Below are positions 26,007 to 33,625 of a DNA stretch of 40,103 nucleotides, piece after piece. The position numbers and the translations under genes were made by a program. The notes below the pieces were generated by a model. That model was not told the DNA's origin. It saw nothing but the letters and a program-made list of their open reading frames with translations, and did not search any database. The stretch comes from Minisyncoccota bacterium (GTDB lineage: Bacteria; Patescibacteriota; Minisyncoccia; Phycocordibacterales; Zambryskibacteraceae), in assembly GCA_025450175.1 (NCBI GenBank), contig JANWHY010000006.1, positions 1-40,103 on the forward strand, in the 5' to 3' direction. Each line of letters begins with the position of its first letter. The first letter of the stretch is position 1.

Positions 26007-26133
26007 CTTGTGCGCCCAGAGGGAATGAACAGCTGGGAAACCCACGGTTTTCCCAAACCTTCCTCCACGGGAGAGAATTCTCCTCTCCCGACCCCACTCC
26101 TGTTCGATTCCCTCTGGGGAAGGCAAAAGCCTT
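26007..26133 (-). repeat. tRNA-3'-linked palindromic element, copy A (at tRNA-Lys)
   Basis: Read on the minus strand, the tRNA-Lys gene is followed by a small spacer hairpin (26120-26133), an inverted copy of the tRNA T-arm and acceptor (26107-26118), an 81-nt core (26027-26107), then a direct copy of the tRNA 3' end (26007-26026, a 20-nt exact repeat of 26131-26150). The outer arms pair over 18 bp with one bulged base. Inside are two hairpins, 26068-26090 (CGGGAGAG/CTCTCCCG) and 26034-26055 (TGGGAAA/TTTCCCA), giving a three-way junction. The core matches copy B at 75 of 81 positions. No coding potential is seen. Confidence 0.85.
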
Positions 26134-26134
26134 G

Positions 26135-26207
26135 TGCGCCCAGAGGGAATCGAACCCCCGACCATCTCCTTAAGAGGGAGCTGCTCTACCGGCTGAGCTA
26201 TGGGCGC
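26135..26207 (-). tRNA. tRNA-Lys(CUU)
   Basis: Acceptor GCGCCCA/TGGGCGC, D-stem GCTC/GAGC, anticodon loop CTCTTAA, T-loop TTCGATT. The 27-43 pair is a G-A mismatch; otherwise canonical. Discriminator A; CCA not encoded. The 3' end is duplicated downstream by the element at 26007-26133. Confidence 0.93.
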
Positions 26208-33383: not shown

Positions 33384-33539
33384 TGTGCGCCGGGAGGGAT
33401 AGAACATCTGGGAAACCCACGGTTTTCCCAATTCTTCCTCCACGGGAGAGGATGTTCCTCTCCCGACCCCACTCCTGTTCGAATCCTTTCCGGCAGTTTG
33501 CAAAAAGCCGAGCTACAAGAGCTCGAACTTTTTTACAAA
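33384..33539 (-). repeat. tRNA-3'-linked palindromic element, copy B (at tRNA-Tyr)
   Basis: Same layout as copy A but with arms from tRNA-Tyr. On the minus strand, tRNA-Tyr is followed by a 43-nt spacer hairpin (33497-33539, with CGAGCT/AGCTCG inside), an inverted near-copy of the tRNA T-arm/acceptor (about 33479-33493), the core (33402-33482), and a direct copy of the tRNA 3' end (33384-33400, a 17-nt exact repeat of 33540-33556). The core hairpin CGGGAGAGG/CCTCTCCCG is one pair longer than in copy A. The outer stem is about 16 bp with an internal loop and two G-T pairs. Confidence 0.85.
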
Positions 33540-33541
33540 TG

Positions 33542-33625
33542 TGCGCCGGGAGGGATTCGAACCCCCGTAGGCCATAGGCCGGCACGTTTACAGCGTGCTA
33601 CGATTGACCACTCCGTCACCGACGC
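33542..33625 (-). tRNA. tRNA-Tyr(GUA)
   Basis: Acceptor GCGTCGG/CCGGCGC with one T-G pair, anticodon loop CTGTAAA on GCACG/CGTGC, long variable arm (CGGCCTATGGCC), T-loop TTCGAAT. Discriminator A, CCA not encoded. Confidence 0.95.

Follow-up and report, generated by a model that had tools for sequence, protein, structure and literature searches.

The locus behind the tRNA-Tyr gene of this contig, which belongs to an ultra-small Parcubacteria-type bacterium, raises the question of how a short folded sequence can stay constant while its flanks match the end of the neighbouring gene, and what kind of unit is organised in this way. The window, that is, the whole stretch of 40,103 nucleotides that was analysed, contains two copies, A and B. 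Copy B spans 33384-33556 in the minus-strand sense, behind tRNA-Tyr(GTA) (33541..33625, minus strand; ARAGORN and Rfam RF00005), and the element measures about 155 letters. Along the minus strand, the tRNA 3′ end is followed by a hairpin spacer, an antisense arm, the core and a sense arm. The gene-side copy of a 17-nt direct repeat (33540..33556, minus strand, the tRNA-Tyr end plus 1 nt) leads into a spacer made of a terminator-like hairpin and a T-run (33498..33539, minus strand; TTTGTAAAAAAGTTCGAGCTC TTGTA GCTCGGCTTTTTGCAAA). The left arm (33478..33496, minus strand), which nearly matches the tRNA-Tyr 3′ end in antisense, was delimited from the sequence and from family statistics, and overlaps the right end of the core by a few bases. 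The conserved core, in the limits set by the earlier note, occupies 33402..33482 (minus strand; match to model R1 at 33405-33476) and includes hairpin H1 (33443..33465, minus strand; CGGGAGAGGA ACA TCCTCTCCCG), which is an inverted repeat and corresponds to covarying helix 1, and hairpin H3 (33409..33430, minus strand; TGGGAAAACC GTG GGTTTCCCA), which corresponds to covarying helix 2. The right arm (33384..33400, minus strand) repeats the tRNA-Tyr 3′ end once more in sense orientation. Base-by-base comparison bore out the exact 17-nt repeat that had been claimed, 33384-33400 being equal to 33540-33556 (TGTGCGCCGGGAGGGAT), and the inverted near-copy is present as well, with 16 of 18 positions agreeing between the minus-strand GCCGGAAAGGATTCGAAC and the complement of tRNA-Tyr GCCGGGAGGGATTCGAAC.

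Copy A has the same layout behind tRNA-Lys(CTT) (26134..26207; ARAGORN and Rfam), also on the minus strand. It comprises a gene-side direct repeat (26133..26149, TGTGCGCCCAGAGGGAA), a left antisense arm (26103..26118, CCCAGAGGGAATCGAAC; sequence and the arm statistics of the family, where this locus is L002), a core (26027..26107, found by model match and by base-by-base comparison with copy B) and a right sense arm (26009..26025). The two 81-nt cores (33402-33482 and 26027-26107) are identical at 75 of 81 positions without a gap, as announced, and all six differences lie at 33407, 33432, 33433, 33451, 33454 and 33455. The first hairpin does have a longer pairing in copy B than in copy A. The description of the arms held in part: they match tRNA-Tyr, but they are not unlike those of copy A, since TGTGCGCCGGGAGGGAT and TGTGCGCCCAGAGGGAA agree at 14 of 17 positions, and the BLAST alignment of A and B extends across the arms (93/104). 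The arms are alike because the 3′ ends of tRNA-Lys and tRNA-Tyr are similar; at three differing arm positions, each copy agrees with its own tRNA. With arms that are mostly alike, the pair alone therefore proves little, and a wider survey carries the argument. Chance is ruled out as the source of the likeness between A and B by the genome-wide family.

The genome of the window (442 kb, 12 contigs) contains four matches to the core, at tRNA-Tyr, tRNA-Lys, tRNA-Asp and tRNA-Gln, the last one being a truncated core about 480 bp beyond the tRNA. A covariance model of the core, built from 27 relatives, detected it in 112 of the 297 genomes that represent the order (Parcubacteria-type Patescibacteria) and in 31 of 379 genomes across the phylum, with up to 20 copies in one genome. 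The named hosts are Kaiser-, Taylor-, Nomura-, Zambryski-, Yonath- and Wolfebacteria, together with similar Parcubacteria-type MAGs. The core had no match in Rfam 15 at gathering or permissive thresholds, and viral or plasmid carriers were found neither in IMG/VR (exact pattern) nor in INPHARED or PLSDB (blastn). Larger cargo-bearing versions with a distant right repeat were also looked for, and no case was convincing.

The core behaves as a structure under constraint, in agreement with the proposal that its fold is kept while its sequence drifts. In 109 aligned cores, an alignment that was fitted to the model and is thus biased towards structure, the helices are 97.0% paired versus 86.2% after shuffling; two-sided changes number 206 versus 66, 11 pairs have changed on both sides, and the covariation score is 0.303 versus 0.117 (reached in 0 of 500 shuffles) and at most 0.12 when the alignment is slid. 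A free MAFFT alignment of 27 cores recovered the same helices with compensatory changes. G-U pairs outnumber A-C combinations in the core helices (36 versus 9), which indicates that the folding strand is the sense strand of the host gene, as RNA or as single-stranded DNA. On its own, the copy B region folds more stably than its shuffles (z of -2.3 as RNA and -3.6 as DNA); in its single-sequence predicted fold the ideal arrangement is not cleanly visible.

Where do these cores lie? Among 204 unique elements in the loci fetched, 136 begin 20-118 nt past a tRNA or tmRNA gene of the same strand, and a tRNA host on the opposite strand occurred once. The tRNA hosts cover nearly every tRNA type. Elements outside tRNAs follow genes that include rpsI (S9), rpmG (L33) and hppA, or lie in antisense at the start of rnhA, murD and glycosyltransferase-like genes, these protein names being our own reading of the translations; the antisense elements at the 5′ ends of the latter genes (L053, L057, L064, L131, L231) duplicate the gene start. 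Some elements have no recognised host gene. Three such cores (L109, L110 and L124, in G165 and G205) lie by contig ends and adjoin GC-rich repeated sequence. Genome G104 contains free-standing relatives of the core (L091, L093, L095, L096, L098) that are not beside tRNAs and have GCCACGGCC-type hairpins in place of gene-end arms; two of these copies are nearly identical. For tRNA-linked elements, the arms are specific to the host: the antisense left arm matches its own tRNA with a score of at least 12 in 72% of cases versus 2.4% for other tRNAs, and the sense right arm does so in 55% versus 0.2%. At the right junction, the T-loop motif GTTCRA is altered to GTGARA in 52 of 136 elements versus 1 of 136 host genes. 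Direct repeats flank the elements at the end of the target gene, as they do in tyrosine-integrase integrative elements. A hairpin separates gene and core in 105 of the 136 tRNA-linked elements, accompanied by a T-run in 80, and with a terminator-like hairpin usually in this position, ordinary transcription of the core is doubtful.

The survey also bore out the proposal, made from two copies, that the arms vary with the host gene and the core stays: cores that are 91-98% alike carry different arms. In particular, L001 (Tyr) and L002 (Lys) of the window genome and L005 (Ser) of another genus have cores that are about 91-93% identical, and several cores of rpmG elements reach 94-98% identity to those of tRNA elements. 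The idea of separate target-specific lineages was rejected; the clustering of the cores does not follow the host gene. At L286, from another order of the same class, near-identical cores lie behind tRNA-His and tRNA-Arg, and the right junction of the tRNA-Arg unit runs from ACGGGTTCGAGTCC, as in tRNA-His, into the Arg-specific TCCCGGGG, which places the change of target inside the T-loop block that both tRNAs have in common. The same locus (L286:1440-1928, G361) shows exact 163-bp tandem units of the whole element behind tRNA-Arg, followed by a partial third unit. Moreover, two different cores can be stacked in tandem at one tRNA. The second core type (CGAANGCCGGAG ... GAGGCNGGGTCG ... GTGACC before GATTCC) is unrelated to the first, has the same layout behind tRNAs and also occurs in tandem with it; its pattern matched 36 times in 32 of 297 genomes, and the reversed control pattern 0 times. 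This second structured core, in the gene-end layout and often stacked with the first, was seen at L277 and L289-L318. Since two unrelated cores have one layout, the layout belongs to the way of inserting rather than to a single sequence.

We then asked whether the repeats arrive with the core. The 13 tRNA-Tyr loci of the genus include two with this core, one with a complete core of the second type and one with an antisense arm at a contig end; the remaining nine are empty, with no core and with no direct or inverted copy clearly above background. This comparison put the insertion claim of the earlier note at risk, and the claim came through: empty sites lack the repeats, which therefore do not predate the core but arrive together with it. 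The origin of the arms is less simple. That ends are rebuilt from the target at insertion holds when the target gene changes, but the ends are not always freshly duplicated on the spot. Indeed, in rpmG, hppA and rnhA both copies of the gene end are in frame and their differences are mostly synonymous, while about 80% would be nonsynonymous if changes were random. This excess indicates that one of the copies was shaped as a functional gene end in another lineage and arrived with the element. The rpsI copies gave no usable comparison, the alignment being too short or out of register. Two elements stacked at a single tRNA (L040) have unrelated terminators. The hppA element is present in two species of one genus (L104 in G037 and L334 in G120); inside each genome the two gene-end copies agree over their first 38 nt or so, this stretch differs between the genomes, and the distal part differs almost only at synonymous positions. 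This pattern points to recombination or conversion beside the core, an incomplete explanation. The matching of the arms is probably also favoured by selection for pairing close to the core.

Taken together, these features describe units of about 110-230 bp that read, in the sense of the host gene, as gene 3′ end, terminator-like hairpin, antisense gene end, core and second sense gene end. They stand at gene ends, mostly on the strand of the gene, can form exact tandem arrays and are absent, with both repeats, from most sister sites. We propose that copy B belongs to a large Patescibacteria family of tiny, gene-less, non-autonomous integrative elements that are moved by a recombinase acting in trans, a reading to which we give a probability of roughly 45%. 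The unit seems to bring along a gene end, in many cases with a terminator; insertion would thus leave the gene working and displace the old end rightwards. Strand exchange probably takes place inside the gene-end homology, which for tRNAs would be in the T loop, and new tRNA targets appear to be reached through the common T-loop block. The excised form may be a small circle or a single strand; its sense and antisense arms would pair into a double-stranded copy of the target with the core as a cap. The folded strand could, however, be RNA instead of single-stranded DNA. In CTXphi attP(+), two inverted sites on single-stranded DNA pair into a hairpin that is used by Xer recombinases (PMC3089051). 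By analogy, a recombinase provided in trans, either the host Xer or an unseen helper, would join this folded structure to the end of the gene. A circle derived from another tRNA would, on simple integration, leave a chimeric tRNA, and target switching thus needs a second step; the simplest guess for the rewriting of the antisense arm on a change of target is template switching when the junction is completed. Besides the need for a second step and the unclear predicted fold of copy B, several points speak against this trans-mobilised element: no element carries an integrase, the one widespread Xer-type protein occurs with or without elements, the targets have no common sequence that a single recombinase could read, and a single fixed crossover does not account for the identity of about 38 nt in hppA.

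Template switching during replication might also build the whole unit with no dedicated enzyme, both arms being rebuilt from the local target. The nascent strand would fold back on the terminator hairpin and copy the gene end as antisense, then jump through T-loop microhomology (GATTCGAAC) into a distant element, copy the core and jump back to the T loop. Such a route would explain the single long palindrome that, in many elements (L039, L019, L014, L018, L044), runs through gene end, terminator and left arm, as well as the identical 68-nt duplication of L030, terminator included; it also fits with the lack of an associated enzyme and with the homology that tRNA T loops have in common. We nevertheless hold it to be unlikely. 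The unrelated terminators of stacked units (L040) and the synonymous differences between protein-gene repeats indicate parts that were imported rather than copied locally, rpsI, rpmG and hppA have no common T-loop homology, and a conserved, covarying core is left without a reason.

Which enzyme could move the elements? No integrase or other gene lies inside the unit, which is too short for a gene. The association tests compared at most 26 genomes, so that a weak association could escape them. The only recombinase encoded in nearly every genome is one Xer-type protein, which is present with or without elements and shows no correlation. Among the integrase loci examined, none was within about 7 kb of a core, and extra integrases were not associated with the elements. 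Y1 transposases occur in 14 of 26 genomes regardless of elements, do not correlate with copy number and are absent from the window genome. A small GIY-YIG endonuclease-like ORF lies between tRNA-Gln and the truncated core of the window genome (L004:1672-1920, minus strand); GIY-YIG proteins were rejected as mobilisers, with no enrichment near cores. These searches also bear on insertion guided by RNA or single-stranded DNA, in which the core would be a scaffold for a protein and the arms a base-pairing guide that is refreshed from each new site. This mechanism suits a scaffold that stays the same while its arms vary and pair with the target, and also the range of targets (all tRNAs, tmRNA, ribosomal and other genes) that offers no common protein-binding sequence. 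The folded strand is the host-sense one, and the GTGARA at the right junction (52/136 versus 1/136) is expected if an intact match must be destroyed. However, the TnpB-type nuclease (PF07282) that defines TnpB omegaRNA systems was found in 0 of 26 genomes, and reverse transcriptase, the mark of retroelements such as retrons and group II introns, in 6 of 26, mostly not the element-rich ones, and not in the window genome; there was no Rfam match and no candidate protein, and the terminator-like hairpin that usually precedes the core makes its ordinary transcription doubtful. Guided insertion is accordingly improbable. We would regard with the same reserve a self-reprogramming integrative element, with at least two unrelated cores, whose target-copied, guide-like arms would direct the next insertion through a candidate RNA- or ssDNA-guided machine of Patescibacteria.

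That small circles enter by natural transformation and integrate by ordinary Campbell-type homologous recombination, without any site-specific enzyme, is very unlikely: this route would suit the imperfect gene-end homologies of 20-97 nt, the conversion-like identity of about 38 nt in hppA and the exact tandem units, but homology is often below 20 nt, and the fixed T-loop junction, the inverted arm and the conserved covarying core are left unexplained. We give as little credence to a host regulatory RNA, a conserved 3′ structure modulating the processing or termination of tRNA and ribosomal-protein transcripts, which the covariation, the strand bias and the position behind tRNA, tmRNA and ribosomal-protein genes would favour, for the core is patchy in the genus (2 of 13 tRNA-Tyr sites), follows genes that differ by genome, lies behind a terminator, occurs in tandem copies and occupies gene starts (rnhA, murD) in antisense.

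How do elements mobilised in trans compare with known systems? Integration at gene ends is known as a general idea: rpsI, rpmG and tRNA 3′ ends are sites of the tyrosine integrases of streptococcal ICEs (PMC4701971). The Patescibacteria elements resemble tyrosine-integrase ICEs, IMEs and prophages in their target genes, in the duplicated gene end that forms att-like repeats, in the restoration of the gene end and in stacking. Unlike these, they are gene-less, have no integrase, measure 110-230 bp, include the target sequence in inverted orientation as well and use one core for dozens of unrelated targets. With CTXphi attP(+) and other Xer-exploiting elements they have in common two inverted target copies, which could anneal within one strand to give a double-stranded attachment site; in contrast to CTXphi and IMEX, they insert at the ends of tRNA, tmRNA and protein genes instead of dif, carry no phage genes, and have arms that vary by copy. 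A folded imperfect palindrome, variable paired arms and the use of one strand recall the attC sites of integrons, but there are no GTTRRRY/RYYYAAC boxes (the arms have ATCGAAC and GTGAGAT or GTTCRA) and no cassette gene, and the arms equal the neighbouring host gene. MITEs, REP/RAYT sequences and the repeats of IS200/IS605 are likewise short, gene-less, hairpin-rich and present in many copies, whereas the terminal sequences here are not constant and follow the host gene. Every known kind considered misses at least one of the defining features tested, and no description of such elements was found in the literature searched, which was limited to open-licence papers. As far as these tools show, a micro-element that has no gene, keeps one folded core and bears arms which are copies of the host gene is new.

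If the interpretation is right, few integrative elements described so far would be smaller, and these occur in about one in three genomes sampled from a bacterial order that is large and mostly uncultured; by supplying the gene end, they would insert harmlessly beside essential genes. The design of a constant core with target-copied arms is absent from the families tested here, and the machinery behind the elements could be a new programmable insertion system. On the plain reading, as trans-mobilised att-site parasites, they would still serve as markers for tracing how Patescibacteria recombine and exchange genes.
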